Of a stretch of 64,000 nucleotides of DNA, positions 23,405-60,843 are shown piece by piece (positions within the stretch are counted from its first letter, which is position 1; each line of letters starts with the position of its first letter). The position numbers and the translations under genes were made by a program. Source of the DNA: Streptomyces sp. NBC_01217 (GTDB lineage: Bacteria; Actinomycetota; Actinomycetes; Streptomycetales; Streptomycetaceae); the NCBI RefSeq assembly GCF_035994185.1, contig NZ_CP108538.1, positions 1-64,000 of the forward strand. Reading direction: 5' to 3'. The notes under the pieces were generated by a model that was given only the letters and a program-made list of their open reading frames with translations, was not told the DNA's origin and searched no databases.

Positions 23405-23424
23405 CATTTGCGTACGCACGCAAT
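23405..23424 (-). promoter_or_regulatory. Shared redox-gene operator, site 1 (wrbA copy 1)
   Basis: Core TTGCGTACGCACGCAA, about 110 bases upstream of wrbA copy 1. The same core recurs at 39013, 44879 and 59864, always upstream of flavin/quinone/diiron genes. The remainder of 23296-23790 shows no gene. Confidence 0.65.
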
Positions 23425-23789
23425 TACGTGGGCGCCGGACCGGTGCCGGCCGGACAGGCCTGTCGGCGTCGGCACCACGCCAATCCTCGCCGCGCTGCAC
23501 GTGGACTCCACGAGAACCTCAGTCATGGCTCCCGCATGGGGACCTTCGGCGTTCCCTGGATCCCAAACGGAGCACTTCTGGCGCGCGCTGATGCGGCACT
23601 TCCAGTACGCCCGGAGGTGGAAGACGGGCCTGACGAATGAGCGCCTGCGTCGCCTCGAATCGCCGTACCCGGTGCTGCGGAGTGCGCGCCGCCATGCCGT
23701 CTGGATTTCGACACGGCCGCCGTCACGACGGATCAGGTCCGGCAGATCCCGTGCGTGCCGGAGTGAGCCGGTGGCCCAGCGGCCCGTCA

Positions 23790-24085
23790 CTCCGTGCGCG
23801 GCGGCCAGCGAAGCAGAAACACACCCACGGCGGCAGACACGAGGATGACGTATATGCGTAGGCCACTCCCGCGTCCCGCAGCTCAAGCGCCAGGTCCCCC
23901 CGGCGACCACCGGAATGGAGATGCCGAGGTACGCGACACGAAAAAGAAGGTCGAGATCGTCGCACGGCAATGCTCGTCGGAAGCCACCGCGCCGACGCCG
24001 GTGAGCCCGCCACCGAAGGACATGCCCTGGCCGAGCCCGCCGGCCAGGGCGCCCACGACGAGCACCGCCAGGGACTCCACCACAC
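23790..24085 (-). pseudogene. MFS transporter, C-terminal remnant
   Basis: Three minus-strand frames in succession read GLGQGMSFGGGLTGVGAVAS, then YLGISIPVVAGGT, then LALELRDAGVAYAY, a collinear end of a major-facilitator exporter broken by at least two frameshifts. An N-terminal half of the same transporter type, also next to a hemerythrin gene, is at 58200-58789. Confidence 0.6.
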
Positions 24086-24092
24086 GGCGCCT

Positions 24093-24835
24093 GCAGGTGA
24101 GCGGGAAGTCGGCCTACCAGTGGCACCAGTTGTGGCGCGATGGCGGTGCGCGGGCTCTGGTTACGCGTGGTCCGAGCGGTTCGCGGTGCCGTCTGTCCCC
24201 GCGCTGTCTGGAGAAGCTGGCCGCGTATCTGGAGGAAGGCCCGGCGGCGCACGGTTGGGTGGAGGACCAGGTGTGGACCGCGGCAAGAGTGGCCACACTG
24301 ATCGGCCGGAAGTTCCACGTCTCCTACAGCGTCTCGGGTGCGACGCGGCTGATGCACCGGCTTGGCTTCAGTCCCCAGGTCCCGGGACGGCGGGTCGCCG
24401 AGCGCGACGAGCAGGCCGTCACCGTCTGGAAGGAGGCGACCTGGAACGAGGTAAAGGAGCCCGGGCGGCCTGCGGGGGCTACGTCTGCTTCGAGGACGAG
24501 GCAGGCTTCACCCGACGGCCGCCCCAAGGACGCACCTGGGGCCGACGCGGACACACCCCGGTCGTGACCGTCAGCGGGCGCTCGGGACGCCGGTTGGTGG
24601 CCGGGCTGATCGCGCTGCGGCCCGGCTCCCGCACCAGGCGGTGCCACCGCCTTCGCACCCACCCCGGCGGCCGCGGCAAGCACCGCAGCATGGGCGAACG
24701 CGCTGATCGACGGCGTCCACCACCTCGTCAAGGCGCCCATCGTGCTGATCTGGGACCGCCTGAACACCCACGTCTCCCACGCCATACGCCAACTGATCGC
24801 CGAACGTGCGTGGCTCACGGTGTTCCTGCTGCCTG
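24093..24835 (+). pseudogene. IS630-family transposase, frameshifted and truncated
   Basis: Collinear pieces in different frames: SGKSAYQWHQLWRDGGARAL (HTH region), FHVSYSVSGATRLMHRLGFS, YVCFEDEAGFTRRPPQGRTW (catalytic Asp/Glu region), then IVLIWDRLNTHVSHAIRQLI. The N-terminus and the final catalytic segment (YSPDLNP) are missing; the element is cut by the IS3 end at 24836. Confidence 0.8.
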
Positions 24836-24885
24836 AATCGCCCCGGGTTTGATGGAGACATCGAAGACCCGGAAGGATCCCGAGC

Positions 24886-25175
24886 ATGGCTGCACCCCGT
24901 AAGTACCCCGAGGAACTGCGCGAGCGGGCGACCCGGCTCGCCGTCGAGGCCCGCAAGGACCCCGCCGGCCGCGCCGGGGCGATCAGGCGCGTCGCCGAGC
25001 AGCTCGACATTCACCCCGAGGCCCTGCGCGGCTGGGTGCGGCAGGCCGAGACCGACGACGGCGCCCGGGCGGGCACCACTTCCCAGGACGCGGCCCGGAT
25101 CGCGGAGCTGGAGCGAGAGGTGAAGGAACTGCGGCGGGCCAACGCGATACTGAAGTCCGCCTCGGCTTTCTTCGC
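24886..25175 (+). pseudogene. IS3-family orfA, interrupted by IS110
   Basis: MAAPRKYPEELRERATRLAV through ANAILKSASAFFA is an IS3 OrfA (HTH plus coiled coil), practically identical to the minus-strand copy at 29475-29792. IS110 enters after SASAFFA; the missing end (ELDRPLR) and the start of orfB (KVAYIDQHKQEFGVQPI) are found at ~26478-26555. Left element end near 24833. Confidence 0.85.
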
Positions 25176-26477: not shown

Positions 26478-26512
26478 CGCCGAGCTCGACCGTCCACTGC
26501 GCTGAAGGTCGC

Positions 26513-27365: not shown

Positions 27366-27818
27366 ATGACGGCTGATGTCCCCCTGGATGCAGAAGAAGA
27401 GCGCTTCTGGCATGCCCTACAGCGAGTGATTACCGCGTTGCCAAACGCTCTGGACAAAGACCTTCTGAAGTCGACCGGGCTGACGCTGTCCGAGTACACG
27501 GTCCTGATGTTCCTGTCCGAGGCAGAGAACCGTGAACTGCGTGTGATCGATCTCGCCGAACTCACCCATCTCTCGGCCAGCCGCATCTCCAGGGTGGTCG
27601 ACGCCCTGAAAGCCCGTGGTTGGGTGACGAAACGGCGGCACGAGGTGGACGCCCGGGGAAGCCTGGCAAGCCTGACACCCGAGGGAATCAAGCGCCTGGA
27701 AGGCGCCTATCCGTCGCTCCTGACCAGTTCGCGCAGGCGCGTCATGAACCACGTGGACCATGACTTTCTCTCGGGTATGGCCGTCCAATTCGAGCGGGTC
27801 GCCGACCATCTCGGCTAG
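27366..27818 (+). CDS. MarR-family transcriptional regulator
   Basis: Complete 150-residue protein. Winged-helix core: GLTLSEYTVLMFLSEAENRE, then recognition helix LTHLSASRISRVVDALKARG, then the wing VTKRRHEVDARGSLASLTPE. MarR dimers usually repress promoters until bound by phenolics or oxidised at Cys; this one has no Cys that I can see, so ligand sensing is more likely. It is isolated between IS debris, with no target gene beside it and no copy of the redox palindrome upstream. It is one candidate regulator for the shared operator sites, by elimination only. Confidence 0.85.
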   Translation: MTADVPLDAEEERFWHALQRVITALPNALDKDLLKSTGLTLSEYTVLMFLSEAENRELRVIDLAELTHLSASRISRVVDALKARGWVTKRRHEVDARGSLASLTPEGIKRLEGAYPSLLTSSRRRVMNHVDHDFLSGMAVQFERVADHLG

Positions 27819-27840
27819 TACTCCAGTGCGATTTCGTGAT

Positions 27841-36585: not shown

Positions 36586-36849
36586 TCAAAACTGACAGTT
36601 ATTCAATTGCAAGCCCCCAGGCGGCAGCAGGGCGGCCACTTCGCCGGCGAGCTGCTCGGCGCCGGTCAGCGCGGCCACGCCGCAGTGGAGCGGGGAACTA
36701 TGCGTTCCCCGCTCCTGGACCTCCGGCCCCGATTGATGCCGCCTCGCGGGCTGGAACAGTGGCACCCCCGCTCCGTTGGGAGCGAGGTTGCCGTTGCCGT
36801 TCACCGCGTAGGTCAGCGGTGCCCTGAGGTCAGGTAGCCGACTGGTCAC
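36586..36849 (-). CDS. Hypothetical ORF overlapping the FMN reductase end
   Basis: 87 codons starting MTSRLPDLRAPLTYAVNGNG inside the 3' end of the FMN reductase gene, with a C-terminal part (VAALTGAEQLAGEVAALLPP) that looks like real protein. It may be the start of a third operon gene cut by the ISAzo13 element at ~36590. Weak support. Confidence 0.25.
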   Translation of the reverse strand: MTSRLPDLRAPLTYAVNGNGNLAPNGAGVPLFQPARRHQSGPEVQERGTHSSPLHCGVAALTGAEQLAGEVAALLPPGGLQLNNCQF

Positions 36850-37579
36850 TTTGAGGGGGCGGGGCGCCGCCGGCGGCGAGTCTCATCAGCGGGGAGTCGA
36901 AGTCGACGTCCGCCGCAGTCTGCTCCGTGCGTGTCGCGTTCCCGCCGAAGTGATGCTGGTAGCTGGACCAGGCGTTGTCGGCGATCGCGGCGCCGACGCC
37001 CGAGCTCATCAACACCGCGAGTTCGGTGGCCGCGCGGCCGATGCGCGCGCCGAGGGCCGAGTCGCCCCAGTCCTCCGGTGCGGCGAAGACCGAGGTGGGT
37101 ACTGTCAGTGTGCGCATGAATGCGAGCATAGGGCGCATGTGGTCGTCGACGACCAGTGCGTGGCGGGCACTTCCGGCCGTCGCGGCCAGCAGCAGGGGTT
37201 TGGCGACGATCAGGTCGTTGTCGAGCACGTCGAAGAACGACTTGAACAGTCCGCTGATGCCGGCGGTGTAGACCGGCGAGGATGCGATCACGCCGTCCGC
37301 GGCGGCGAGCTGCCGGATCGTCGCCAGGAGCCGTTCGCCGGGGAAGCCGGAGACGATGGCCTGCGCGATGTCCACGGCGATGGGGGCAAGTTCGATGACC
37401 TGGATCGTAAGGGCGCGGCCTTGTATGCGGAGCAGGTCAGCGGTCTTCTGCGCTATGCGGTCGGCCAGCAACCGGGACGACGAGGGATTGCCGGTCCCGC
37501 CGCTGACGACCACGAGAGAGAGCGATGGATGGGCCGGCTGCTCCCGATCGGCCTGAGGGTGTGCCGTGTCGTCGGTCAT
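36830..37579 (-). CDS. NAD(P)H-dependent FMN reductase (CE1759/MsuE-like)
   Basis: Flavoprotein of 249 residues. The flavodoxin-like FMN site reads SGGTGNPSSSRLLADRI, with ASSPVYTAGISGLFKSFFDV as the second loop. The N-terminal ~15 residues are probably disordered. It starts two bases after the stop of the luciferase-like gene, so the two form an operon: the reductase supplies FMNH2 to the monooxygenase. This pairing (CE1758 + CE1759 families) is widespread in actinobacteria. The shared palindrome at 39013 lies upstream of the operon. Confidence 0.87.
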   Translation of the reverse strand: MTDDTAHPQADREQPAHPSLSLVVVSGGTGNPSSSRLLADRIAQKTADLLRIQGRALTIQVIELAPIAVDIAQAIVSGFPGERLLATIRQLAAADGVIASSPVYTAGISGLFKSFFDVLDNDLIVAKPLLLAATAGSARHALVVDDHMRPMLAFMRTLTVPTSVFAAPEDWGDSALGARIGRAATELAVLMSSGVGAAIADNAWSSYQHHFGGNATRTEQTAADVDFDSPLMRLAAGGAPPPQSDQSAT

Positions 37580-37581: not shown

Positions 37582-38769
37582 TCAGCCGATCTCGGGGTAG
37601 CGGGCGGCGAACGCCGGGGTGCTGTCCTCGTACGGCGAGGTGCCGGTCACGTTGTCGCCGCGGTTGGGGTTCGGGCGCGGCTGGCGGGGCTCGGCGTCGC
37701 CGTACTTCGCCTTGACCAGGCTCGCGTGGGTCGGCGTCTCGGGGACACCGGGCGCCCGAGTGGCCGCCATCTCCTTGCGGAGCACGGGGACGACCTCGGT
37801 GCCGAGGAGTTCGACCTGCTCAAGGGCGGCTTCGACGGGCAGTCCCAGGAGGTCGATGTTCCACAGCTGGCGCTGGTAGTCGCCGTAGCGCTGCCGGAAG
37901 TCCATGGTCTTGTCGATGACCAACTGGGGGCTGCCCACCGACAGCGGCGTAGCCTCCATGTAGTCGTCGAGGGAGTTGCCGCTGAACAGCGGGAAGGCCT
38001 CGAAGTAGGGGCGGAACCGGTTGACCGCGTCCTGTGACTTCCTGGCGATGAAGGCATGACCGCCGAGGCCGACGATCGCCTGTTCGGGCGTGCCGTGCCC
38101 ATAGTGGGCGAAGCGGTCGCGGTAGAAGGAGATGAGCTGGTCGAAGTGCCCGTAGGGCGCCAGGACGTTGTTGGCGAAGAAGCCGTTGCCGTAGAAGGCG
38201 GCCTGCTCGGCGATCTCGGGGGTGCGGATGGATCCGTGCCACACGAACGGCGGAACGTCGTCGAGCGGACGCGGGGTGGACGTGAAACCCTGCAGCGCGG
38301 AGCGGGACTCGCCCTCCCAGTCGACCACGTCCTCCCGCCAGAGCCGGTGCAGCAGGTTGTAGTTCTCCAAGGCGAGGTGGACCCCCTTGCGGATGTCCTG
38401 ACCGAACCACGGGTAGACCTGGACGGTGTTACCCCGGCCGACCATCAGGTCGACCCGCCCCTTGGCCAGGTGCTGGAGCATCGCGTACTCCTCGGCGATC
38501 CGCACCGGGTCATTGGTCGTGATCAAGGTCACGGAGGTGCTCAGCGTGATCCGCTCCGTGATGGCCGCGATGTGGCCGAGGAGCGTGGTCGGGGTGGACG
38601 AGAAGAACGGCGGGTTGTGGTGCTCGCCGATGGCGAAGACATCCAGACCCACCTCGTCCGCGCGCTTGGCGATACGCACGATCGCGTCGATGCGCTCCGC
38701 CTCGCTCGGGGTGTAGCCCGTGACGGGGTCACGGGTCACGTCGCTGACCGAGAATATTCCGAATTCCAT
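37582..38769 (-). CDS. FMN-dependent luciferase-like monooxygenase (CE1758 family)
   Basis: 395 residues from ATG 38769 (MEFGIFSVSDVTRDPVTGYT). TIM-barrel landmarks of bacterial luciferase-like enzymes: DVFAIGEHHNPPFFSSTPTT, RITLSTSVTLITTNDPVRIA, AKGRVDLMVGRGNTVQVYPW. A Pro/Gly-rich C-terminal tail (PRPNPNRGDNVTGTSPYEDS) is typical of this subfamily. It oxidises an unknown substrate using FMNH2 from the reductase encoded immediately downstream. Transcribed divergently from the Tat-exported SnoaL-like gene across a region containing the redox palindrome. Confidence 0.9.
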   Translation of the reverse strand: MEFGIFSVSDVTRDPVTGYTPSEAERIDAIVRIAKRADEVGLDVFAIGEHHNPPFFSSTPTTLLGHIAAITERITLSTSVTLITTNDPVRIAEEYAMLQHLAKGRVDLMVGRGNTVQVYPWFGQDIRKGVHLALENYNLLHRLWREDVVDWEGESRSALQGFTSTPRPLDDVPPFVWHGSIRTPEIAEQAAFYGNGFFANNVLAPYGHFDQLISFYRDRFAHYGHGTPEQAIVGLGGHAFIARKSQDAVNRFRPYFEAFPLFSGNSLDDYMEATPLSVGSPQLVIDKTMDFRQRYGDYQRQLWNIDLLGLPVEAALEQVELLGTEVVPVLRKEMAATRAPGVPETPTHASLVKAKYGDAEPRQPRPNPNRGDNVTGTSPYEDSTPAFAARYPEIG

Positions 38770-39144
38770 CGTTGTGCTGCCTTTCTGAGCGCGTGAGGTC
38801 GCCGTACGACGATTACGCGGACCTGGACGGGGCGGCGATGCGACGGCCCCGTTCTCGCCCATCTCGCGGTATGGCCGCCAGAGAACTTGTCCTGCCGGCA
38901 CAGCCGGGCCGTATCGGGCGAACCGGTAATCCTGCCATCCAGGGAGACGCCGGCTGGGCGTTCAGCGGGACCGCCGAGTCATGCAAGGTGCGGCGCGAGC
39001 AAATATACCCCGCAAATGTTGCTTGCGTACGCATCTTCTATTACTGTCGCGATCAAGACCCCCGCGGCGGCGGGTGCTTCACCGCGCGCCCCGGCCTCAG
39101 GAGCCGACGGCACTTTGCCGCAGGGACGATCACTGGAGTAATCG
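38770..39144. other. Divergent promoter region
   Basis: 375 bases between the CE1758-type gene and the SnoaL-like gene. Holds operator site 2 in an AT-rich pocket (39000-39055). No gene seen. Confidence 0.6.
39013..39034 (+). promoter_or_regulatory. Shared redox-gene operator, site 2
   Basis: TTGCTTGCGTACGCATC (from 39019), in the reverse orientation to sites 1 and 4. It lies ~110 bases before the SnoaL-like gene and ~245 bases before the CE1758 gene, so it could control both. Confidence 0.6.
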
Positions 39145-40155
39145 ATGAAGTTCTCCTCCCTTGAAGGCTCCGCCAGTCCGGGCCGTCGAACGCTGCTCGG
39201 CGGGATGCTGGCCGCCACGGCCATGACGGGCATCGGCGTCGGCTCTGCCGCCGCGACCCCCAAGACCGCCTACCGGCCTCCCCGCACGATCAAGGTGATG
39301 GGACACGACGTCGACGTCAGCCGGGCCACACCCTGGCTGGCGGACTTCTTCACCTCCTACTTCGAGGCCAAGTCCGGAACCGACGTCGACCGCCTGATGG
39401 CGCACTTCTCACGCACATCGATCGTCTACACCGACGCCACCGTCGGCTGGGCCTTCCCCGACTGGCAGCACCTGTACGACCTCTTCGCCCAGCTCATGCC
39501 GACCTGGCCCGACTCCGCCATGGCCTACCCGACCCGCATCGTCGGCGACGACAACAGCGCCGTGGTCTTCTTCACCGACTCACCGGAACTGTTCGGCCGC
39601 GAACTGCGAGCCATCGGCACCATCAACTTCCACCACGGCAAGGTCGTCCGCTGGGTCGACCACTGGGACGGACGCTCCCTCACCGTCAAGGGCGTCGACG
39701 ACATGCGCGTCCCCGTCGACCAGTTCCCCACCGACTTCGGAGAGAAGACGGTCGGCCAGACCGCCGCTCCGGCCCTCCGGGCGGTCGTCAGCAAACTGGT
39801 AGCCGCGCTGGCAGCCGGGGACGCGGCCAAGACCGCCATGCTCCTGGACCCGGACGTCGTCCTCGAGGACATGGCCCTGCACACCCAGGTGATCGGCCGG
39901 GGCCGGGCCGAGGAGTTCCTCAGCCACACCCTGGCGACCCTCCCCTACGGTCGGAACGTCACCCTGCGACACACTGTCGGCAGCGCCCAGGGCGGCGCCT
40001 TCGAGTGGATCAGCCGCACCCCACTGCCGCTGGGAGCCACCGCGCTCGAACTTGGCACGAACGGCCTGATCACCCGCATGACGTCCACCTGGGACAGCGC
40101 CCTGTGGCAGGAAACGGCCATCGGCCAGGTCCAGGCCGCCACGATCCTCGGCTGA
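39145..40155 (+). CDS. Tat-exported tandem SnoaL/NTF2-like protein
   Basis: 336 residues with a twin-arginine signal (SPGRRTLLGGMLAATAMTGI) and an Ala-rich cleavage region. The mature protein has two NTF2-like cone domains: the first with WLADFFTSYFEAKSGTDVDR and IGTINFHHGKVVRWVDHWDG, the second (residues ~200-336) with VSKLVAALAAGDAAKTAMLL and GRGRAEEFLSHTL. SnoaL-like folds serve as small-molecule isomerases, hydroxylases or binding proteins; Tat export suggests folding before secretion. Divergent from the luciferase-like operon and sharing its operator, it probably handles the same compound class (inference). Confidence 0.78.
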   Translation: MKFSSLEGSASPGRRTLLGGMLAATAMTGIGVGSAAATPKTAYRPPRTIKVMGHDVDVSRATPWLADFFTSYFEAKSGTDVDRLMAHFSRTSIVYTDATVGWAFPDWQHLYDLFAQLMPTWPDSAMAYPTRIVGDDNSAVVFFTDSPELFGRELRAIGTINFHHGKVVRWVDHWDGRSLTVKGVDDMRVPVDQFPTDFGEKTVGQTAAPALRAVVSKLVAALAAGDAAKTAMLLDPDVVLEDMALHTQVIGRGRAEEFLSHTLATLPYGRNVTLRHTVGSAQGGAFEWISRTPLPLGATALELGTNGLITRMTSTWDSALWQETAIGQVQAATILG

Positions 40156-40280: not shown

Positions 40281-40300
40281 CACGTGCGGACGCAAGCAGT
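40281..40300 (-). promoter_or_regulatory. Weaker match to the redox operator, site 5
   Basis: TGCGGACGCAAGCAG matches the core TGCGyACGCAmGCAA with two differences; a second CGCAAGCA half lies 20 bases upstream at 40270. It is about 160 bases before the luciferase-family gene at 40453. Confidence 0.35.
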
Positions 40301-40452: not shown

Positions 40453-41361
40453 ATGAAGATTGGTTTTGCACTTCCGTACCTGAACCATGTGGCCCATCAG
40501 GTCTCCCAGACAGCCGATTTCGCCCGAGAAGCGGAGAAGGCGGGCGCGGCAAGCCTGTGGGTAGGGGATCGGAACTTCGCGGCAGTCAATCCCACAATCG
40601 GAATCGGCGGTGCGGGTGACACCACGATTCCAGTGGAGTACCGGACTGCCGCGGACCCATTTGTGCTGCTCGGCGTTGCAGCTGCGACGACCGAGCGGGT
40701 ACAGCTGGGCACCAACGTTTTGATCGCTCCCATCTACGCACCCGTGCAGTTGGCACGCAGCCTTACCACGATCGATCTCATCAGTGGAGGACGCCTCATT
40801 CCGGGCTTCGGTGTCGGCTGGTCACCCGAGGAGTTCACGGCAGCGAACCTGGACTTCAGCAAGCGCGGCGCCCGGACCAACGAGATGCTCGATGCGCTGG
40901 AGCTGCTCTGGACCGAGGACCCAGTGGAATACCACGGCCGGCACCTGGACCTTCCGCTGCAGCACTCTCCGCTGAAACCCGTGCAGAGGCCCCGTCCTCC
41001 CTTCTACATTGGCGCACCGACCGGGGCCAGTGCCGCGCTCAAGCGCATCGGAGAGCGCGCCGACGGCTGGCTGCCGGCGTCCATAGTTCCTGTCTTCGTG
41101 GACGCTGACGTCGTACTCGCACAGCGTGCGGTCATCGACGGGTTCGCCACAGCGGCAGGACGCGACCCATCGCAGATCGACACGATCATGCGCGTCAACA
41201 TCGTCGAAGGGACCCCGCTCACCCAGGTCGCCGACGCGATCAAGTCCCTTGCCGAACGCACCGGCATCCAGCATTTCATGGTGGAATCCATGTCCCTGCC
41301 CCACATCGACGCCTCACTGGAACTGGTCACGCGGATGATGACACTCATCGGACGCGGCTGA
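40453..41361 (+). CDS. LLM-class (F420/FMN) oxidoreductase
   Basis: 302 residues, luciferase-like TIM barrel: MKIGFALPYLNHVAHQVSQT, AATTERVQLGTNVLIAPIYA, GGRLIPGFGVGWSPEEFTAA and PRPPFYIGAPTGASAALKRI. These match the F420-dependent LLM subfamily with a probable-oxidoreductase annotation. Such enzymes reduce or oxidise small organic substrates using F420H2 or FMN; the substrate cannot be deduced. It stands alone between a Tat protein gene and a MITE-like element. ATG at 40453 has GAAGG upstream. Confidence 0.85.
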   Translation: MKIGFALPYLNHVAHQVSQTADFAREAEKAGAASLWVGDRNFAAVNPTIGIGGAGDTTIPVEYRTAADPFVLLGVAAATTERVQLGTNVLIAPIYAPVQLARSLTTIDLISGGRLIPGFGVGWSPEEFTAANLDFSKRGARTNEMLDALELLWTEDPVEYHGRHLDLPLQHSPLKPVQRPRPPFYIGAPTGASAALKRIGERADGWLPASIVPVFVDADVVLAQRAVIDGFATAAGRDPSQIDTIMRVNIVEGTPLTQVADAIKSLAERTGIQHFMVESMSLPHIDASLELVTRMMTLIGRG

Positions 41362-41823: not shown

Positions 41824-44259
41824 TCACAGGATCTGTTCGGCCCAAATGGTCTTGCCCAGTGGGGCGTAGCGGGTTCCCCAGCGATGGCAGCATTGGGCGA
41901 CGAGGAAGAGCCCGCGTCCTCCTTCGTCGGTGGTGGCTGCTCGGCGGATGTGCGGCGAGCTGTTTGCCGCGTCGCTGACCTCGCAGATCAGTGTCCGGTC
42001 GAGGACCAACCGGAGTTGTATCGGATCACGGCCGTGGCGGATGGCATTGGTGACGAGCTCACTGACGATGAGCTCGGAGGCGAAGGCCAGGTGCTCCAGC
42101 CCCCACTGCTGAAGTTTCTGCAGTACGAGTGGGCGCATGTCGCCAACGGCCTCGGGTACCGGCGGCACCGTCCATACGGCCACCTTCTCGGGGTCGAGTG
42201 TGCGAGTCCGGGCGAGGAGCACTGCCAAGCCGTCTTCCTTTGTGAGGCCGGAAGCGACCAGGTCGGTGATGGCTCTGCACGTGTCGTCGAGTGGCCGGCT
42301 ACGGCTGGCGATGACCGTGCCGAGCCGGGACGCGAGCCCGTCGGCCGTGTCGGCGGGGTACGGGAGGCGCTGACTGCAGAGCACCAGGGTGCTGCCCTCG
42401 TCGAGTTCCACCTCCAATGGCTCGAACACCGGGTCTCCCAGACCGAGCGGAGCGTTGATCGGCAGCTCGGGAAACACCGCCTCCCCATCCCGGCCGACGA
42501 TGGCGGGCGGAGGATGACCGGCGCTCGCCATCACGCAGTGTCGTGAGATGGGGTCGTAGACGGCGTACAGGCAGGTCGAGCCCTTCAACGCCTCCACCAC
42601 GGCTGCGGATCCGGTGGCGTGTTCGCGCTCGAGGAGCCGCGGCACCATGTCGTCGATCTGGCCCAGCAACTCGTCCGGAGTGAGTTCCACCTGCGCCAGC
42701 GTGCGGATCGCGGAGCAGATGTGCCCCATGCACGCGGCCGCCTGGAACCCCTTGCCCGGCACCGAGCCCACGACCAGGGCCACCCGCGCACCCGAGAGGG
42801 GAATCACATCGAACCAGTCGCCACCGGCTCCCGCGTGCACGCGCGACGGGCGGTAGTGGTGCGCCACCTCGACCGCGCTCTGATCGGCGACGCTGCGCGG
42901 CAACATGCTCGCATGGAGGGTGAGGGCCGCTCGGTGCTCGTTCGTGTATCGGCGCGCATTGTCCACGCACACAGCGGCGCGCGCGACGATCTCCTGAGCA
43001 AGAACAAGATCATCCGCCTCGAAGGGCTTCGCATGCCCCCGATACATATGGACGAAACCCAAGGTCGCCTCCCTGGCACGCAGAGGTACGAGAATCAAGG
43101 AGCCGATCTCGTGTCTGTGGACGGCCCGGATCCGCTGGTCAGCAGAATGCTGCATCCAGTCGGCATCAGGGTCGACGACCGGAATCAGCCTCGGTTGCCC
43201 GTCCATGAGGCTTTGCACATGAGGCGAGTCAGGGGGAAAATCGTGCAGCTCCCCCCGCTGCGCGAACCCCTCGAAGACGACGGGGTTGGTGGCCCTGCGC
43301 GCAGCGAGACGCACCCCGACCGGGCCAATGCGCATCGGCTCCGGCTCTGCCCCCGCCATGACGCTGTCCAAGAGGTCTATCACCGCAATGTCGGCAAAGC
43401 GCGGAACGAGCATGTCCACGAGTTCGTCCGCCGTGCGCGGCACGTCAAGCGTCGTGCCGATACGAACGGCGGCCTCGCCGATGAGCGACAGACGCTCACG
43501 AGCCTGGTACCGGTCGGTGATGTCAATGATCAAGTCGGTCACACCGAGAACGCTGTCGTCCGGTCCCGTCAGGACCACGGAGGACACATTCCACACATGG
43601 TCCCGCTCCGGATCTGCGGGGGTGCGCCCGCGATGAACGGCATTGACGACCGGCCGGCCCGTCTCCAGGACCTTCTTGAGCCGGGACTCGACCGCCGCGG
43701 CATCGAGCCCCGGAAGAACATCGCGGATGGAACGACCGAGCGCCCGCTCCTCGGGAAAACCGTGGATGTGCTCCAGGGCGGCATTGACCCGCACAAAGCG
43801 CAGGTCCCGGTCGTAGACGGCGATACCGACCGGCGCTTGAGTGAAGAGCGCCTCCAAGATCGCCTGGCCCTCCGCAACGGGCGAGGGGGGCGCGGGCACC
43901 GCGATGACAACGGTGCCCTCGATCCCGGGCCCTCCGGGCTCGAGCAACCGCGACGTGTGCAGAACAACATCGGCGGGGCGTCCGTCCCGGCCGGTGAGCA
44001 CAGCACGGAGGGCCGGAGCAGACCCCAGCGTCGGCCCAGAGGCGTTCCCCGAAGTCGGTTCCGCGAATACCTCCGGCCACAGCACGGCTGCCGGCTGTCC
44101 GACGACGTCGAACGAGCTGTAACCGAAGAGCGCCTCAGCTCCGGCGCTCCATGCCGAGACAAGACCATGGTCGTCGAGAACGAAGCCGGCGATCTTCTCA
44201 TCGCCAGGCGCGAGACGGCTCGCCGGAGACTTGCCCATTTCCTCAGTCCTGTCACACAT
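41824..44259 (-). CDS. PAS-PAS-GAF-SpoIIE phosphatase with C-terminal anti-sigma-like kinase domain
   Basis: 811 residues. Domains in order: PAS (about 20-120, FVLDDHGLVSAWSAGAEALF), PAS (about 135-260, ILEALFTQAPVGIAVYDRDL), GAF (about 270-440), PP2C/SpoIIE phosphatase (about 450-670, GAGGDWFDVIPLSGARVALV with the metal-binding Asp; GKGFQAAACMG), and HATPase_c (about 690-811, ELIVSELVTNAIRHG; DEGGRGLFLV). This is the typical Streptomyces regulator of the sigma/anti-sigma/anti-anti-sigma type: the phosphatase dephosphorylates an STAS protein and the HATPase can act as anti-sigma kinase. It is soluble and probably senses redox, light or ligand through PAS/GAF. An alternative start is ATG 44237. 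No STAS or sigma gene is adjacent. Confidence 0.9.
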   Translation of the reverse strand: MCDRTEEMGKSPASRLAPGDEKIAGFVLDDHGLVSAWSAGAEALFGYSSFDVVGQPAAVLWPEVFAEPTSGNASGPTLGSAPALRAVLTGRDGRPADVVLHTSRLLEPGGPGIEGTVVIAVPAPPSPVAEGQAILEALFTQAPVGIAVYDRDLRFVRVNAALEHIHGFPEERALGRSIRDVLPGLDAAAVESRLKKVLETGRPVVNAVHRGRTPADPERDHVWNVSSVVLTGPDDSVLGVTDLIIDITDRYQARERLSLIGEAAVRIGTTLDVPRTADELVDMLVPRFADIAVIDLLDSVMAGAEPEPMRIGPVGVRLAARRATNPVVFEGFAQRGELHDFPPDSPHVQSLMDGQPRLIPVVDPDADWMQHSADQRIRAVHRHEIGSLILVPLRAREATLGFVHMYRGHAKPFEADDLVLAQEIVARAAVCVDNARRYTNEHRAALTLHASMLPRSVADQSAVEVAHHYRPSRVHAGAGGDWFDVIPLSGARVALVVGSVPGKGFQAAACMGHICSAIRTLAQVELTPDELLGQIDDMVPRLLEREHATGSAAVVEALKGSTCLYAVYDPISRHCVMASAGHPPPAIVGRDGEAVFPELPINAPLGLGDPVFEPLEVELDEGSTLVLCSQRLPYPADTADGLASRLGTVIASRSRPLDDTCRAITDLVASGLTKEDGLAVLLARTRTLDPEKVAVWTVPPVPEAVGDMRPLVLQKLQQWGLEHLAFASELIVSELVTNAIRHGRDPIQLRLVLDRTLICEVSDAANSSPHIRRAATTDEGGRGLFLVAQCCHRWGTRYAPLGKTIWAEQIL

Positions 44260-44878: not shown

Positions 44879-44896
44879 ATTGCTTGCGCACGCACT
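44879..44896 (+). promoter_or_regulatory. Shared redox-gene operator, site 3 (wrbA copy 2)
   Basis: ATTGCTTGCGCACGCACTTC, ~140 bases before the second wrbA. Same orientation and same flank (TTGCTTGCG ... CTTCTA) as site 2. Confidence 0.6.
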
Positions 44897-45035: not shown

Positions 45036-45656
45036 ATGCCCCACACACCCAACGTCGCAGTCATCTACTACTCCTCCACCGGCACCATTCACCAGCTGGC
45101 GGAGACCATCGCCACCGGTGCGTCCGAGGCAGGAGCCAACGTACGTCTGCTGCGCGTCGCCGAGCTCGCGCCCAAGGAAGTGATCGCGGGCGTCCAGCCG
45201 TGGGCCGACCACGCCGCCGCGACCGAGCACATCCCGGTCGCCACGCCGGACGACATCACCTGGGCCGACGCCGTCATATTCGGCACACCCACCCGCTTCG
45301 GCAACGTCGCCAGCCAGCTCAAGCAGTTCCTGGACACCCTCGGCGGCCTGTGGGCCCAGGGCCTGCTCGCCGACAAGGTGTACAGCGCCTTCACCTCCAC
45401 AGCGCAGCTGCGCGGCGGCCAGGAGTCCACCCTGCTGGCGCTCTACAACTCCATCTACCACTTCGGCGGGTTCATCGTGCCCCCCGGCTTCACCGACCCC
45501 GTGAAGTTCGTCGACGGCAACCCCTACGGCACCTCGCACGTGACCGGTGCCGACGCGCAGTTCCCCGTCGACAGCACGGCCCGCGCCGCCGCCACCTTCC
45601 AGGGCCGGCGCATCGCCGACGTCACCCGGATCATGAAGGCCGGCCGCGCGGCGTGA
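45036..45656 (+). CDS. wrbA: NAD(P)H:quinone oxidoreductase, WrbA family (copy 2)
   Basis: Flavodoxin-fold protein of 206 residues. FMN loop YYSSTGTIHQLAETIA, GTPTRFGNVASQLKQFLDTL and LRGGQESTLLALYNSIYHFG parallel copy 1 at 22684-23295 throughout. ATG 45036 gives the natural N-terminus (MPHTPNVAVIYYSS). It is the first gene of a plus-strand run with the SDR (96 bases downstream) and the zinc alcohol dehydrogenase, and has the shared palindrome upstream. Expected role: two-electron reduction of quinones, limiting redox cycling. Confidence 0.9.
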   Translation: MPHTPNVAVIYYSSTGTIHQLAETIATGASEAGANVRLLRVAELAPKEVIAGVQPWADHAAATEHIPVATPDDITWADAVIFGTPTRFGNVASQLKQFLDTLGGLWAQGLLADKVYSAFTSTAQLRGGQESTLLALYNSIYHFGGFIVPPGFTDPVKFVDGNPYGTSHVTGADAQFPVDSTARAAATFQGRRIADVTRIMKAGRAA

Positions 45657-45752: not shown

Positions 45753-46502
45753 ATGTCAGTTCCGCAGACACACACGGGCCGCGTTGCCGTCGTCACCGGC
45801 GCCGCACGCGGTATCGGCCAGGCCATCGCCGTCGACCTCGGGGCGCGCGGCGCGACCGTTGTCGCCGTCGACCTCACCAGCCCTGACGAAACCGTCGCCC
45901 TGCTCGCCGACAAGGGCCACACCGCACTCGGTCTCACAGCGGACGTGTCCAGCCCGGAGCAGACCGCGGCCGTGGGACAGGAAGTCGCCGACCGCTTCGG
46001 CCGGGCCGACATCCTGGTCAACAACGCCGGCATCTTCCCCTTCCGCGACATCGAGGACCTGGACTACGACACCTGGAAGCGCGTGCTCGCGGTCAACCTC
46101 GACTCGCAGTTCCTCATGGTCAAGGCCGTACTGGCGACCATGAAGAAGGGCGGCTGGGGCCGCATCGTCAACCTGACCTCCAACTCCATCGTCACCAACA
46201 TCCCCGGCCTCTCGCACTACATGGCGAGCAAGATGGGCAACATCGGCTTCAGCCGCGGCCTGGCCAACGACCTCGCGCCCTTCGGCATCACCGTCAACGC
46301 CGTCGGCCCGACCCTGACCATCACCCCCGGCAGCCAGCAGGTCCACCCCCAGGAAGCTCGCGACGCCGCCGCCCAGGCCCAGGCCATCAAGCGCAACGGC
46401 CTTCCCGAAGACCTCACCGGCACCATCGCCTTCCTCACCAGCGACGACGCCGCCTTCGTGACCGGCCAGACGATCATGGCCGACGGCGGCTACGCCCGCT
46501 GA
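45753..46502 (+). CDS. Short-chain dehydrogenase/reductase
   Basis: 249 residues, classical SDR. Cofactor motif TGAARGIG at 15-22, NNAG at 90-93, catalytic Ser143, Tyr156 and Lys160 (SHYMASK). Asp40 after the second strand (VVAVDLTS) favours NAD(H). C-terminal TGQTIMADGGYAR is typical of FabG-like enzymes. It probably acts on an alcohol or ketone intermediate together with the downstream dehydrogenase; substrate unknown. RBS-like TGGAG lies just before ATG, and a long spacer separates it from wrbA. Confidence 0.9.
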   Translation: MSVPQTHTGRVAVVTGAARGIGQAIAVDLGARGATVVAVDLTSPDETVALLADKGHTALGLTADVSSPEQTAAVGQEVADRFGRADILVNNAGIFPFRDIEDLDYDTWKRVLAVNLDSQFLMVKAVLATMKKGGWGRIVNLTSNSIVTNIPGLSHYMASKMGNIGFSRGLANDLAPFGITVNAVGPTLTITPGSQQVHPQEARDAAAQAQAIKRNGLPEDLTGTIAFLTSDDAAFVTGQTIMADGGYAR

Positions 46503-46643: not shown

Positions 46644-47735
46644 ATGCGCAACGTCAAGCGCGCCGTACTGGTAAAGCCCGGTTCTCCCCTGGAGATCTGG
46701 GAGCGCCCCACCCCGTCCGCATCCAGCCGTGACGTCATCGTCTCGGTCGAGATGTCCGGCGTCTGCGGCACGGACCACCACCTCCAGTCCGGCGACATCA
46801 CGCTGCCCAACCCGATGGTCCTCGGGCACGAGGCCATCGGCCGTATCGAGGAACTCGGCTCCGAGGTCACCACCGACTACGCCGGAGAGCCCGTCGCGGT
46901 GGGAGACCTCGTCTACTGGCAGCCGGCGCTGCCGTGCTACCGCTGCTACTACTGCACCGTCCTGGAAGACGTGTCCATGTGCCCCAACCTGGTCACGTAC
47001 CAGCTGCACCAGCACGGGGACAAGCCGCCGGTGGGGACCTACACGGAGTACGCCTGGCTGCCGGACGGCATGACATTCTTCAAGATCCCGCAGGACGTCC
47101 CGGCCGAGGCCCTCATCGCCTTCGGTTGCGCCATGCCCACCGCGCTGCACGCCCTCGACCGGCTGGGCGGCATCCAGTACGGGCAGAACGTCATCGTGCA
47201 GGGCTCCGGCCCCGTCGGCCTCGCAGCCACACTCCTGGCGCACCTCGCCGGCGCGGGGAGCGTCACGGTCCTCGGCGCACCCGCCAACCGGCTCGAGATG
47301 GCCGAGAAGCTCGGGGCCACCACCGTCATCGACGTGACGAAGACCACCGAGCAGGAACGGGCCGCCGCGGTCATGGAGATCACGGACGGCCGCGGCGCGG
47401 ACGTCATCATCGAGGCCGCCGGCAGGGTCCCCGCGTTCACCGAAGGTCTCCCGCTCGTCGCCACCAACGGTACATACGTCATCCTCGGCCTCTGGTCCGC
47501 GCCGGGCACCTCGCCGGTCGAGCCGCGCTACCTCAACAACCGCAACATCAGCGTCATCGGCTCGGCCTACACGACGCCGCGGCACATGTACAACACGATC
47601 CAGATCACCCGGATGTGCCACCAGCGGTTCCCGCTCGCCGAAATGGTCACCCACCGCTTCTCCCTCGAGCAGGCGCAGGACGCGTTGGACTCCGTCGGAC
47701 GCGGCGAGCCGCTCAAGGCCGTGATCGTGCCGTAA
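46644..47735 (+). CDS. Zinc-dependent alcohol dehydrogenase (MDR family)
   Basis: 363 residues. Catalytic zinc ligands Cys41 (GVCGTD) and His62-Glu63 (GHEAIG); structural zinc lobe Cys98, Cys101, Cys104, Cys113. Rossmann motif GSGPVGLAATLLAHLAGAG with VTVLGAPANRLEMAEKLGAT. Oxidises an alcohol or reduces an aldehyde with NAD(P). RBS AGAAAAGGAGTC precedes the ATG. Two hairpins separate it from the SDR gene, so it may be expressed at a reduced level or from its own promoter. Confidence 0.9.
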   Translation: MRNVKRAVLVKPGSPLEIWERPTPSASSRDVIVSVEMSGVCGTDHHLQSGDITLPNPMVLGHEAIGRIEELGSEVTTDYAGEPVAVGDLVYWQPALPCYRCYYCTVLEDVSMCPNLVTYQLHQHGDKPPVGTYTEYAWLPDGMTFFKIPQDVPAEALIAFGCAMPTALHALDRLGGIQYGQNVIVQGSGPVGLAATLLAHLAGAGSVTVLGAPANRLEMAEKLGATTVIDVTKTTEQERAAAVMEITDGRGADVIIEAAGRVPAFTEGLPLVATNGTYVILGLWSAPGTSPVEPRYLNNRNISVIGSAYTTPRHMYNTIQITRMCHQRFPLAEMVTHRFSLEQAQDALDSVGRGEPLKAVIVP

Positions 47736-48900: not shown

Positions 48901-49533
48901 TCACCTCGCGTTCGCCCCGGATGGCGATCCCAGAGCGTCTTCCGGGCCGTCCGCGTCTCGCCCCGCTCCCCGGATGCCGTCGAACGCCAGGCAGAGCACG
49001 CGCTCGCGTTGCGCGTCATCCGCGAACGATCCCGCCGCCACGCTGACAACAAGGCGAATGGCATCTTCCAACCGGGCATCCGGACGGATGGCCCCTGCCT
49101 CCTGCGCCCTGCGGAAAAGCGGTTCCCCAGCGGCTCGCAGAGCTTCTCGTCCAGCCCTGAAAATTTCCGAATTGCGATCCAGCGTCCCCTGTATGGCCTG
49201 TTTGGTTGCGTCGTATCCGATGAAACGGCGACTCCATGCCTCAAACGCCGGCCAGGCCGGGAGATCGGCCACCTGAGCCGCGAACTCGCAGAGCCGCTCG
49301 ACTTCCTCTGCAAAGACGGCGTGGTAGAGGTGCTGACGCGTGGGGAAGTTCCGGTACAGCGTTCCGATCGCCACTCCTGCCCGCTGAGCGATATCCTCTA
49401 GAGGGACTGTCGGACCACCCTCCGCCAAAGATTCTCTCGCAGCAGCCAAAAGGGCATCGAAATTCCGCAGAGCATCCGCACGATGCGGCCGCGACACCCT
49501 GAATGCAGAGTCGCTGCGAGACACATCACTCAC
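48901..49533 (-). CDS. TetR-family transcriptional regulator
   Basis: 210 residues from GTG 49533 (GGAGACTTAA upstream). N-terminal HTH: ALLAAARESLAEGGPTVPLE, then DIAQRAGVAIGTLYRNFPTR, then QHLYHAVFAEEVERL. The C-terminal ligand domain (residues ~80-200) resembles the SbtR-like TetR group. It is divergent from the molybdenum hydroxylase operon across ~650 bases, so it may control that operon, but the intergenic distance makes this only a suggestion. It is also a candidate for the shared redox operators. Confidence 0.88.
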   Translation of the reverse strand: MSDVSRSDSAFRVSRPHRADALRNFDALLAAARESLAEGGPTVPLEDIAQRAGVAIGTLYRNFPTRQHLYHAVFAEEVERLCEFAAQVADLPAWPAFEAWSRRFIGYDATKQAIQGTLDRNSEIFRAGREALRAAGEPLFRRAQEAGAIRPDARLEDAIRLVVSVAAGSFADDAQRERVLCLAFDGIRGAGRDADGPEDALGSPSGANAR

Positions 49534-57263: not shown

Positions 57264-57479
57264 GCGGGCCCTCTCGAGAACGGCCGGTTCGCGCGCTTGC
57301 GGAGACGCACGAACCGGCTGCCCCGGGGGACACCCCGGTCTGGTCCGGACAGCACAGGCAGGGGACGGCCGAGCCGTCAGGACCGGACCACACCGGGTGG
57401 CTCCCGCAGGGGCCCGGGGCATCCCCCCGGGCCCCGCTCCCCCGGGGAACACACGCGCGACGGAAGGCGAGCAACGAGC

Positions 57480-57581
57480 ATGACCACGATCGGCAAGACG
57501 GGCCTGCGGGGGCGGGTGCGCACCAAGGACGGCTGGGCGGTGCCGCACGCCGTGCTGACGGTCACTTACATGACGGGCTGA
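57480..57581 (+). pseudogene. Truncated carboxypeptidase-regulatory-like/YceI-type gene
   Basis: After GGAAGGCGAGC, ATG starts MTTIGKTGLRGRVRTKDGWA ... VLTVTYMTG and stops after 33 codons. It matches the N-terminus of proteins that commonly follow such DHA2 exporters in Streptomyces and continue with a CarboxypepD_reg and a YceI-like domain. The rest has been replaced by the MFS/helicase remnant. 57264-57479 shows no gene. Confidence 0.55.
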
Positions 57582-57689
57582 CCCTGTCGCGGTCGGCGGC
57601 GCAGACGGCGACATGACCGCTCGGGTCTCTGGGCGAGCCGTTCTCGTCCGTGGAGAGCTCCTTGCGCCACGTAGCCAGGGTAGCGGCGA

Positions 57690-58789
57690 GGCCGGCGAGC
57701 TCCCTTGTCGTCGCGGATCCGTGCGTCCTCACGCTTGTCCCGCGACGTCACGGTGGCTGGCTCCACGACCTGGAACAGGCAGGAACCGTCGTCCGCGATC
57801 TGGCTCGCCCTGCACCGGGGGCACGGCGAGCGATCGTCGGTGGCGTCCTCGGTGCGTACGTACCCGCAGCCTGGGCACACCCGCCAGGTGCGCCACTCCT
57901 GCCGGCCGCCCGTCGACAGCTCCAGGCCGGTGATCTCGTGCCGGTAGCCGTTGACGTAGAAGGTGTTGCCTGGCGCCAGCTCCTGGATCGCGAAGCGGCG
58001 GGGCCGCTCATAGGAGACGGTCTCGGACGTGTACACCACCTTGCCCGTCTTCGGGTCGATGCCGTCCTCGCCGTACAGGGTCGCCGACAGCGTCGTCGAC
58101 GAGTCGATGAAGGCGTAGTTCGGCAGCAGACCCAGGTCACACAGGGCGCTTTGCGCAGTGGTGTGGAAACAGGCCCAAAGCGCGCAGGCGAGGAAACTGG
58201 TGCCGGCCGCGGCGGCGAACGCGGGGCGCAGGGCGAAGCGGTCGGGCCAGTCCTGGGCCTTGAGGCCGGTGTCGACGGTCTCAAGGGTGGCGAGCACCAG
58301 GAGAAGCAGCACCGTCATGGCGGCGGTGAAGACGACGTAGCTGGTGACCAGCGGAGCGGGAACCCATGCGGCGAGGGCTCCGGAGACGAGGGGCCAAATG
58401 CCAGGCCGCCGAGGTTGGCGACGGAGGCGACCTCGGCGGACACCGGCGATCCGCCCCGCTCGGGGTAGGCCTCGTGGTGCAAGTCGGAGAGGTAGGTCGT
58501 GACCATCGAGGCCATCAGTCCCACTGCCACGCCGGTGATCAGGCGCCCGACGATCAGACCCGGCAGGTCCGGCCGTGCGGCAAGGACGACGGCCGAGACG
58601 ATGCCGACGCCGAGCGCCGGAACGATGATGCGGCGGCCGAGCCGGTCGGATAGGTGACCGAGCAGGCGGAAGCCGGCCGCCGCCCCGACGACCATGACCG
58701 CGAAGGCGGATGGTGGCCTCGGTCGGACCGAAGTGGTCACGCGCCTGGTACAGAGGCCACAGCGGGGTCGGCGCGGTACCGAAAGCCAT
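57690..58789 (-). pseudogene. MFS transporter half fused in frame to a helicase C-terminal fragment
   Basis: 58160-58789 encodes the N-terminal part of a major-facilitator exporter (MAFGTAPTPLWPLYQARDHF; LLGHLSDRLGRRIIVPALGV in another frame; LVTSYVVFTAAMTVLLLLVL back in the first), with at least two frameshifts. Near 58140 it runs in frame into LLPNYAFIDSSTTLSATLYG, EELAPGNTFYVNGYRHEITG-like sequence and a zinc ribbon (CPGCGYVRTEDATDDRSPCP), the C-terminal region of large DEAD/DEAH helicases of the kind found in defence loci such as DISARM; that assignment is uncertain. The C-terminal half of such an MFS gene is at 23790-24085. Confidence 0.65.
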
Positions 58790-58927
58790 CGGTTGACGCG
58801 GCCGGAGTTCTGCCGGTGACGAGGCCTCGTCGTTGGTTACGCGATCAGCCGATCAAGTCGCTCCCCCTCCCCCCGGTGATCGCCACCGGAACTCGGGACG
58901 GGTGGATCGCCCTCGGTGTGGTCCGGG

Positions 58928-59608
58928 TCAGTTACCGACGCGGGGTGGGGTGCTGGTGCCGTACAGGCGCTGCGCGTGGTCGGCGTAGGCGCGCTGTGCC
59001 GAGTCGGTCAGGACCAGGCGGGCGGGTTCGGGCACGTCGGCGAGCAGATCCTCGAACACTTCGGGGTCGGCCTCGTACATCGCCATGCCGAGGGCCAGCG
59101 GCATGGTCTCCGGGGGAGTCTTCGCCATTCCGTGCGCACCGAGTTGCTTCCACTCGGCCGCGGTGACGTACTGCCCGGCGAGGGGAAGGATCTCCTTCTC
59201 TTCCAGCATCAGGTGCTCCACCAGCGCCGACAGCAACCGCTCGATGGCACCGGCGAGTCGCTCGCCCTGCTGCGCCGTGGCACGCCACTGCGGCAGGAGT
59301 TCGGTCACCTCTGTGTAATGCCGCTCAATGGCGCCGTGCTGCTCCTCCATCGTGGGCACGATCGCCGCTGCCTTGTCGCCCGCACGCTCGAGCAGGAGCG
59401 GCCAGAGCAGCAGGTCCTCGCCCTCGTGGTGCAGGTGCAGCAGGAAACAGATGTGGTCGGCGTGAGCCCCGACGGCTTTCGCGCGCTCGACATCGCTCGG
59501 CTTCACGTCCCGCACCAACTGCGGAAGCAGGCGGAACTCCCGGCGCAACATGGCGTGTGCCATGTACATGTCTCTGACATCCGCCATGGGCTCATCGGGT
59601 CGGGTCAC
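58928..59608 (-). CDS. Hemerythrin-like diiron/oxygen-binding protein (copy 2)
   Basis: 226 residues from GTG 59608 (VTRPDEPMADVRDMYMAH). His/Glu helices as in copy 1: MYMAHAMLRREF, LLHLHHEGEDLLLW, EEQHGAIERHY and LVEHLMLEEKEILPL. The two paralogues have the same length and similar starts. Operator site 4 lies ~255 bases upstream. Unlike copy 1 there is no wrbA beside it, but the decayed MFS half next to it corresponds to the MFS scrap beside copy 1, suggesting duplication of a hemerythrin-WrbA-MFS block. Confidence 0.85.
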   Translation of the reverse strand: MTRPDEPMADVRDMYMAHAMLRREFRLLPQLVRDVKPSDVERAKAVGAHADHICFLLHLHHEGEDLLLWPLLLERAGDKAAAIVPTMEEQHGAIERHYTEVTELLPQWRATAQQGERLAGAIERLLSALVEHLMLEEKEILPLAGQYVTAAEWKQLGAHGMAKTPPETMPLALGMAMYEADPEVFEDLLADVPEPARLVLTDSAQRAYADHAQRLYGTSTPPRVGN

Positions 59609-60843
59609 TTGCAACCTCACTCATCGTTGAAACCGCTATCAAGGCGGCTGTCGGCGTGGCCGTCTCAGATGGAACGACCAGGTCAGGGGTGCTGGGCTCG
59701 AGGGAGGTGGGGGTGCTCTGCGCGCCAGGCGCTGCAGTGGCCACCGTAAGGAAGCGCCACTTGCGTGCTTCGCCGGAGGTCTCACGGTGTGCCGGTGCTG
59801 CACTTCCCGCCGGCTCTGCCCTGCCGAAGGCGGCTTGCGCCTCATGTAAGGTACCGTACAGCGTGTGCGTACGCACGCAAATGTGTATGCTAGTGCAGCT
59901 CACCACGGTGTCCACAGTGACGCGCGAACCTGGACCAACGATGCAGCGCGTGAGCCTGACGGCCTGCCACCAGGAAATGGGCACACTGACTGGAAAATGA
60001 CACCACCGCACCGCAAGTTCAAGAAGAACGTCCCGGGCCGGTAGGGGCCCACGGGTCCGAATCTTGTGGATCGGGACAGGAACGGCCTCCCGGCCGATCC
60101 TAGGACTTTCAGGGCCACCCGAAATGCTCGTCGCATGCTCCTGGCATCGATAGCCTGCATTGCGTGGGGGCCGACAACCCGCCTCGGGCTGCGATCCGGG
60201 CTCTTCTGTATGGCGGTAGCATTATGGCCGCCAAAGTAAAGACGAGGACTCTGAATGACGCACAAATTACGGACCTGACGGCGGGATTGCCACTTTATCC
60301 GCGATCGCCGCTGGTAGCGCTCGCCGGATTCGGTAGTCCTGCTCCGGACCCGGGTCTGCGCTTTCCTACCCGTCACCGTCCTTCGTAGCGTTGTCCTCCC
60401 CACCATTCCCGGGCCTCACATGCCCACGAGGAAGTCGCCGCCCGAACCGGGTCGTCCACCCCTACACACAGGGGCGGGGCGCGCTCGCCACTTCCACTCG
60501 GAGGACGGCCACACACATTACCGGCTGCCTTCCGCCCTGCCGCCCCCATCCGTCTCTGATCGAGGATGTGATGGCGGAGCAAGGCGAACTCGGCTGGGCC
60601 GTGCATCTGCCGCCCGACGCTACGGATCAATACTCCTGGACGCGTTCGCCGCGGGCTGACGGCGAACGGCCCACTGTCGGCTGGGCAGCTTGATCCTGCC
60701 TCCGGCCGAAGGAGGCCGAACGTGTTCCCCAGGGTGCTAGGTAGCCCCTGTTGTTGTTCATCCGTACGCGTGTACTGCGGTCGAGGAAGCGTCTCCCCAA
60801 GGCCCGGACCGGGCAAGCGTGCACTACATGTAGGAAAACAAGA
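59609..60843. other. Upstream region of hemerythrin copy 2 and ISL3 scrap
   Basis: No intact gene over ~1.2 kb. 59609-59900 is the hemerythrin promoter region with operator site 4 and a further CGGCTTGCGCCTCA half at 59831. A short frame at 60224 (MAAKVKTRTLNDAQITDLTA) is unsupported. 60540-60625 (minus) reads RQMHGPAEFALLRHHILDQ, an ISL3 transposase C-terminal scrap like that at 47890. Confidence 0.45.
59864..59882 (-). promoter_or_regulatory. Shared redox-gene operator, site 4 (hemerythrin copy 2)
   Basis: TGTGCGTACGCACGCAAATG; the 15-base core is identical to site 1. The distance to the hemerythrin start is ~255 bases. Confidence 0.6.

Follow-up and report, generated by a model that had tools for sequence, protein, structure and literature searches.

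Along the first 64,000 bases of contig NZ_CP108538.1 of Streptomyces sp. NBC_01217 (the window; bases 1–64000 of an 8,890,693-base contig in a genome totaling 9,034,013 bases), several separate genes and operons for WrbA-type quinone oxidoreductases, hemerythrin-domain proteins, and flavin-dependent enzymes are preceded by copies of the same palindrome. The question raised by this locus is whether the scattered copies are operators of one regulon and, if so, which protein reads them. A first-pass annotation of the window had proposed a single regulon, and the comparison described below bears this out, since orthologues of these genes carry the operator upstream in four other species as well; the regulon is well supported by this comparative evidence. 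A MarR-family repressor, encoded at 27366–27818 and by a 94% identical paralogue, very probably has this palindrome as its operator and would control the scattered promoters and be released by a ligand for flavin-dependent detoxification; its binding, repression, ligand, and physiological role are what we infer from the sequence.

Operator sites and their genes in the window

The 16-bp palindrome TTGCKTRCGYAMGCAA occurs in four strong copies with the underlying consensus TTGCGT-N4-ACGCAA, at 110–277 bp from the gene starts used; these starts are approximate because genes were called with a simple codon-usage script and no annotation pipeline, and some (those of hem2, hem3, two S.PB5 genes, and others) were set by hand. 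The first copy, TTGCGTGCGTACGCAA (23408–23423, minus strand), lies 112 bp before wrbA1 (22684–23295, minus strand), whose product is an NAD(P)H:quinone oxidoreductase above the cut-off of NCBIfam PRK03767/flav_wrbA, and a -10-like TAGGAT stands 17 bp past its TTGCGT. Downstream and in the same orientation is hem1 (21911–22591, minus strand; Pfam Hemerythrin), encoding a hemerythrin-domain protein; this wrbA1-hem order is retained in two other species, and operator-bearing orthologues of wrbA1 are found in Actinacidiphila glaucinigra and S.PB5. The second copy, TTGCTTGCGTACGCAT (39019–39034, plus strand), is situated in a divergent intergenic region, 249 bp from the gene of a CE1758-family flavin mononucleotide (FMN)-dependent luciferase-like monooxygenase (37582–38769, minus strand; TIGR04036, 624 bits, cut-off 479.1), which the reverse reading of the site serves, and 110 bp from that of a SnoaL-like protein (39145–40155, plus strand; Pfam SnoaL_2), whose N-terminus resembles a signal peptide by eye. 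The gene of the CE1758 partner, a CE1759-family FMN reductase, lies at 36830–37513 (minus strand; TIGR04037, 211.6 bits, cut-off 175.9). The same divergent arrangement, with an 81% identical SnoaL orthologue, is present in GESEQ-4.

The third copy, TTGCTTGCGCACGCAC (44880–44895, plus strand), precedes wrbA2 (45036–45656, plus strand; NCBIfam flav_wrbA above cut-off) by 140 bp, and the wrbA2 group further comprises genes for a short-chain dehydrogenase (SDR; 45753–46502, plus strand; Pfam adh_short_C2) and a zinc-type alcohol dehydrogenase (ADH; 46644–47735, plus strand; Pfam ADH_zinc_N/ADH_N). The fourth, TTGCGTGCGTACGCAC (59865–59880, minus strand), stands 277 bp before hem2 (58928–59587, minus strand; Pfam Hemerythrin), a further hemerythrin-domain gene whose start was chosen by hand. 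The sites described by the first-pass annotation are therefore real, with starts that needed correction by 1–6 bases, and its statement that the other operons of the window lack the motif holds at the threshold of the strict core TGCKT-N4-AMGCA, which occurs within the window at the four strong places only. When up to three mismatches to its pattern are allowed, the window contains 15 matches versus 8.55 expected (standard deviation 3.12; 4 of 100 shuffles reach 15), which is near chance and by itself weak evidence.

A weaker copy had also been reported before an LLM-class oxidoreductase gene, LLM2 (40453–41361, plus strand; TIGR03619 family). Such a site, GTGCGGACGCAAGCAG, does exist at 40284–40299 (plus strand), 153 bp before LLM2, with three mismatches to TTGCKTRCGYAMGCAA and one base different from the CE1758/SnoaL site of GESEQ-4; its role is uncertain, as the LLM2 orthologues of two species lack an operator of their own. 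The 83% identical LLM2 orthologue of GESEQ-4 lies directly downstream of a hemerythrin gene that has the operator. LLM2 is adjoined by a PAS/GAF/SpoIIE phosphatase gene (41824–44259, minus strand), a 76% identical relative of which adjoins LLM2 in A. glaucinigra.

Copies of the motif in the genome and in related species

In the source genome, the strict pattern TTGCKTGCGYACGCA was matched in 12 rows (11 positions, or seven without the mirrored contig end described below) versus none for the reversed control, a count that is no independent test because the pattern was derived from this window. Outside the window, strict sites were found at 250069, 142 bp ahead of a second wrbA-SDR-ADH copy; at 6937374, ahead of a broken SnoaL copy; and at 8420939, where a perfect palindrome with an adjacent transposase stands 326 bp before the gene of a TrmB-like regulator. 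Six further non-mirrored sites carry one mismatch: those at 115732, 1107411, and 7600653 precede a third hemerythrin gene, a third wrbA-SDR-ADH copy, and a wrbA remnant (L039:5787-5966), respectively, whereas those at 6078506, 7167795, and 7532776 fall within unrelated genes. Six of these nine positions thus precede extra gene copies (five) or the TrmB-like regulator (one). The additional wrbA-SDR-ADH copies are located at L031:7227-9926 (250 kb) and L035:2521-5250 (1.107 Mb), and both have an operator-like site. For the loose core TGCKTNNNNAMGCA, the genome as a whole shows no enrichment (19 forward versus 18 control matches); among its 15 non-mirrored positions, eight precede regulon genes including the TrmB-like one, five lie in unrelated genes, and two are intergenic elsewhere. 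Those at 276078, 928979, 4657118, and 5431748 are within predicted genes, and those at 3320601 and 4149569 are intergenic with no regulon gene. At L160:4770-7281 (1.026–1.028 Mb), an FMN reductase gene preceded by TTGCTTCGGCGAGCAA is flanked by two MarR genes; judged by its sequence, this locus is a second MarR-flavoprotein set with a putative related operator.

The genome-wide scan also revealed that the motif sites of the window and the site at 115.7 kb reappear as mirror images at the opposite end of the contig, as do the MarR, CE1758, and TetR genes. Taken together, these mirrored sites and genes suggest that the contig ends in a terminal inverted repeat of no less than about 115 kb, with the window as one of its arms. 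Close to transposase genes in this arm lies a gene for a WXG100-family protein (63253–63615, plus strand).

Because the window sites themselves supplied the motif, it is other genomes that provide the real test. MarR proteins of the same subclade as the window MarR are encoded in A. glaucinigra (81% identity) and in Streptomyces sp. NRRL F-5122, GESEQ-4, and S.PB5 (61–62%). When these four genomes were scanned with TTGCKTGCGYACGCA at up to one mismatch, 14 of the 17 distinct places were upstream of orthologues of the window set, the TrmB-like gene included; on contigs other than that of the MarR the proportion was 9 of 12, and five of the 14 on-target places (on the MarR contigs of S.PB5, GESEQ-4, and NRRL F-5122) had already been seen before the scan. 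All five places in A. glaucinigra are on target, preceding CE1758 (92%), wrbA1-hem1 (93/94%, two sites), wrbA2-SDR (86/84%), and a TrmB-like gene (45%) beside LLM2 (82%). Likewise on target are five of five in S.PB5, before a wrbA2-group SDR gene (88%), a wrbA (60%), CE1758-CE1759 (two sites), and wrbA1-hem1 (92/73%), and three of three in GESEQ-4, before hem1-LLM2, wrbA2-SDR, and the divergent SnoaL/CE1758 pair. A second MarR copy is found in S.PB5 just downstream of the operator-preceded wrbA. In A. glaucinigra, three operator-like sites lie in the interval between wrbA1-hem1 and a short, possibly degenerate MarR gene (L215:8476-8865) that is oriented divergently from it. The upstream regions are 45–65% identical between species, yet the operator is kept. 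As a negative control, none of 29 other CE1758 loci had a site within 600 bp upstream at up to three mismatches, the window's own being the only one to do so; these were the 30 best loci of a genus search that matched 240 of 295 genomes, and three of the 29 (in G273, G084, and G267) come from genomes with a MarR of the sister subclade, none being known to have one of the window's subclade. In the scan with TTGCKTGCGYACGCA at up to one mismatch, the further genome G150 gave no match.

These data also bear on the possibility that no functional regulon exists and that segmental duplication in a transposon-rich arm left the shared sites behind as hitch-hiking remnants. The wrbA2-SDR-ADH copies and the SnoaL copies do share flanks (83–97% identity), so the sites there are not independent, and at the loose threshold the number of window matches is close to the chance level, as stated above. 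Nevertheless, apart from the operator, the promoters of wrbA1, CE1758/SnoaL, wrbA2, hem2, and the TrmB-like gene differ from one another, and in other species these genes bear the operator at different distances, which renders this explanation extremely improbable.

Candidate readers of the operator

The protein most likely to read the operator, on sequence grounds, is the MarR-family regulator at 27366–27818 (plus strand), a protein of 150 amino acids assigned to Pfam MarR_2 (PF12802, 56.7 bits, cut-off 27; PF01047, 41.7 bits, cut-off 24.6). Its 94% identical paralogue (G000:C1:242740, 242.7 kb) and the second wrbA site are 7 kb apart, and orthologues with 57–66% identity were found in 7 of 391 other genomes of the genus. 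In five of these seven loci, TTGCTTGAGCACGCTA, with two mismatches, immediately precedes the MarR start. Three of these loci contain a second MarR gene oriented divergently from a gene for a YceI-WrbA fusion (Pfam-checked in two), with TGCTTTGTCAAGCA or its complement between the two genes. Fusion genes of this kind are at L123:6041-7219, L124:6977-8167 (identified by similarity only), and L127:14280-15461, and nearby genes for LLM, GMC-oxidoreductase, and SDR proteins bear TTGCTT-N4-AAGCAA-type sites. A wider set of related MarR loci was assembled from 24 loci of the species genomes, minus L131, L133, L136, and L137, whose contigs were already included, plus the seven genus loci. The resulting 27 loci (510,042 bases), which are less than independent because close relatives are among them, contain 30 cores versus two for the reversed pattern, and 29 of the 30 are followed downstream by a predicted gene start at no more than 300 bp. 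The recognition helix reads SRISR in six of six members of the window's subclade, which was itself defined by this helix and two pocket residues, and SRITR in 14 of 16 members of the sister subclade (L148 has SRISR and L151 SRIPR).

The first-pass annotation had named two candidate regulators in the window, this MarR and a TetR-family protein; the former is supported, as its orthologues sit with operators and targets, and the latter is not. The TetR gene (48901–49533) lies in the window, and dimeric TetR proteins likewise recognize palindromes of roughly this length. Moreover, NRRL F-5122 encodes a more distant TetR (41%) at about 1.5 kb from its hem1, and a gene that looks TetR-like by eye adjoins the TrmB-like gene of A. 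glaucinigra. However, the closest relatives in the four species (51–56%) are on contigs without an on-target operator; the TetR candidate was rejected for this reason and is very improbable as the regulator.

Binding by the TrmB-like regulator encoded at 8.42 Mb has two points in its favor: its own gene carries the upstream perfect palindrome, with TATACT at spacer 17, and its 45–47% identical homologue in A. glaucinigra has the operator 68 bp upstream. On the other side, GESEQ-4 has three places on target and no TrmB-like homologue at E ≤ 1e-40, none was found at that threshold in the four sister-subclade genomes searched, and the homologue of S.PB5 is only 39% identical, no closer than the second family member of the source genome (38%). 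A gene-by-gene comparison revealed no TrmB-like gene in the MarR loci examined. This alternative is hence considered quite improbable, and the TrmB-like gene is better seen as a regulon member than as the reader, because GESEQ-4 lacks the homologue while its places are on target.

In principle, the operator could be bound instead by another of the MarR proteins of the genome, in which 76 matches to the MarR_2 profile were found, or by an HxlR protein, a family that the first-pass annotation had also suggested. In 245 other genomes of the genus, TTGCKTGCGYACGCA was matched strictly six times versus seven for the control, which is the level of chance, and five of the six matches stand 16–24 bp before other MarR genes (L044, L045, L047, L048, and L049), divergent from an SDR gene in three genomes or from rhodanese and YceI genes in two (one locus per group Pfam-checked). 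Related MarRs may therefore read similar sites. A MarR of the 27366 type is nonetheless encoded in each of the four operator-bearing species examined, often beside the targets, and on this comparison, which covered the 27366 type, control by another paralogue is judged improbable.

Several observations weigh against the window MarR as common repressor and against the regulon as drawn here. In NRRL F-5122 only one of four places is on target (hem1), and in G273, which encodes a sister-subclade MarR, none of one is. Raw rows at one mismatch in the four genomes (20 versus 15 for the reversed control) are hardly above background; the weight thus rests on where the matches fall. The missing sites of the LLM2 orthologues have been mentioned, and the promoter of the window MarR likewise has no operator, i.e., no autoregulatory site, a feature common though not obligatory in MarR regulons. 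Furthermore, the 30 cores are confined to 13 of the 27 related loci, 12 of the sister subclade and only L142 of the window's own, and 14 loci, including three from Kibdelosporangium/Actinosynnema, have none; the core pattern was fixed after some of the 27 loci had already been seen.

Promoter geometry, predicted ligand, and related systems

With its 16 bp, the operator agrees with the pseudo-palindromes of 16–20 bp expected in promoters under MarR control. It was found at up to two mismatches in 23 of 26 aligned upstream regions, the three failures being LLM2 regions; the 23 regions represent 21 physical sites, since in two genomes a single site serves both CE1758 and SnoaL, and several are copies within the source genome. 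TGC, G9, and GCA are invariant among them. In six of the 23 promoters, two of which belong to SnoaL copies of the source genome, TANNNT occurs exactly 17 bp past the first hexamer, and the 14-base stretch that follows the site is AT-rich, at 0.56 versus 0.32 for the window. The operator can hence serve as a -35 element, which suggests that it covers the -35 region and spacer and that MarR acts by steric block. A comparable overlap with the promoter has been described for CrtR, an unrelated MarR protein (PMC5401885). In the mechanism proposed, a MarR dimer would bind TTGCKT-N4-AMGCAA, the left half being the -35 element and the remainder lying in the spacer toward the -10 element, and would thereby block RNA polymerase at several unlinked promoters together, namely those of wrbA1-hem1, CE1758-CE1759, SnoaL, wrbA2-SDR-ADH, hem2, the third hemerythrin, and the TrmB-like regulator. 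MarR would be released by a small ligand, which is probably an aromatic or quinone-like compound as opposed to a thiol oxidant, and flavin-dependent detoxification would be switched on.

As regards the signal, a response to quinones, electrophiles, or oxygen had been anticipated, which the sequence of the window MarR does not establish. The redox-active Cys of thiol-switch MarRs of the OhrR/YodB type has no counterpart in the window MarR, which contains no Cys at all, arguing against a thiol switch; one relative of the subclade, L138, has a Cys. The pocket His of AbsC, SCO3205, and SaMhqR is replaced in six of six members of the window's subclade by Leu (Leu118 in the window MarR) or Asn (in three relatives), and is kept in 16 of 16 members of the sister subclade. 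Because of this replacement, the inducer may be other than a simple quinone.

Among known systems, MhqR of Staphylococcus aureus and Bacillus subtilis (PMC6798810, PMC12893000) likewise combines a MarR fold, a palindromic operator, targets for quinone or aromatic detoxification, and a non-thiol mode; the MhqR operator is of the TATCTCGAA type as opposed to TTGCKT here, and the target genes differ. His111 of SaMhqR contacts the quinone, and the H111A exchange abolished quinone sensing (PMC12893000); its alignment with Leu118 presumes, from the numbering, that the aligned His is H111. The closest solved relatives of the window MarR by sequence are SCO3205 and AbsC of Streptomyces coelicolor (3zpl, 3zmd), whose pocket His contacts salicylate and, for SCO3205, whose consensus TTnAAnnnTCAA differs from the window operator (PMC3737563). 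In the same study, one validated SCO3205 site lies upstream of a gene whose product is homologous to a periplasmic polyisoprenoid-binding protein induced by base. Only the Trp of the Trp/His ligand pair of SCO3205 is kept in the window MarR. Genes for YceI, which we take to be the name of that polyisoprenoid-binding protein, also adjoin MarR genes in loci of this analysis. The sister subclade with YceI-WrbA clusters in other Streptomyces includes MarRs up to 67% identical to the window MarR, and wrbA, LLM, GMC-oxidoreductase, and SDR genes there are preceded by sites of the TTGCTT-N4-AAGCAA type; its clusters are compact whereas the window set is scattered, and recognition helix and operator tend to differ. 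A place for the predicted regulon among MarR-controlled detoxification regulons such as MhqR is well supported, its scatter being the notable feature. In agreement with the first-pass annotation, none of the titles and abstract openings listed by searches of open-access papers treated these genes together as one unit.

A bolder proposal, which we offer tentatively as a reasonable possibility, is a dispersed regulon held together by its operator alone: operator-gene cassettes would have been duplicated, moved, and broken singly in several Streptomyces relatives, and one MarR subclade with altered pocket and operator would keep control and sense a ligand class new for MarR proteins. For the genes of the CE1758/CE1759 flavin monooxygenase, hemerythrins, and WrbA, the analysis proposes a regulator, an operator, and a list of partners; a few promoters and one predicted repressor would provide a means to find the inducing chemical by direct assay. 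For the organism, it suggests a regulon that has survived the break-up of its own genes in an unstable chromosome arm.

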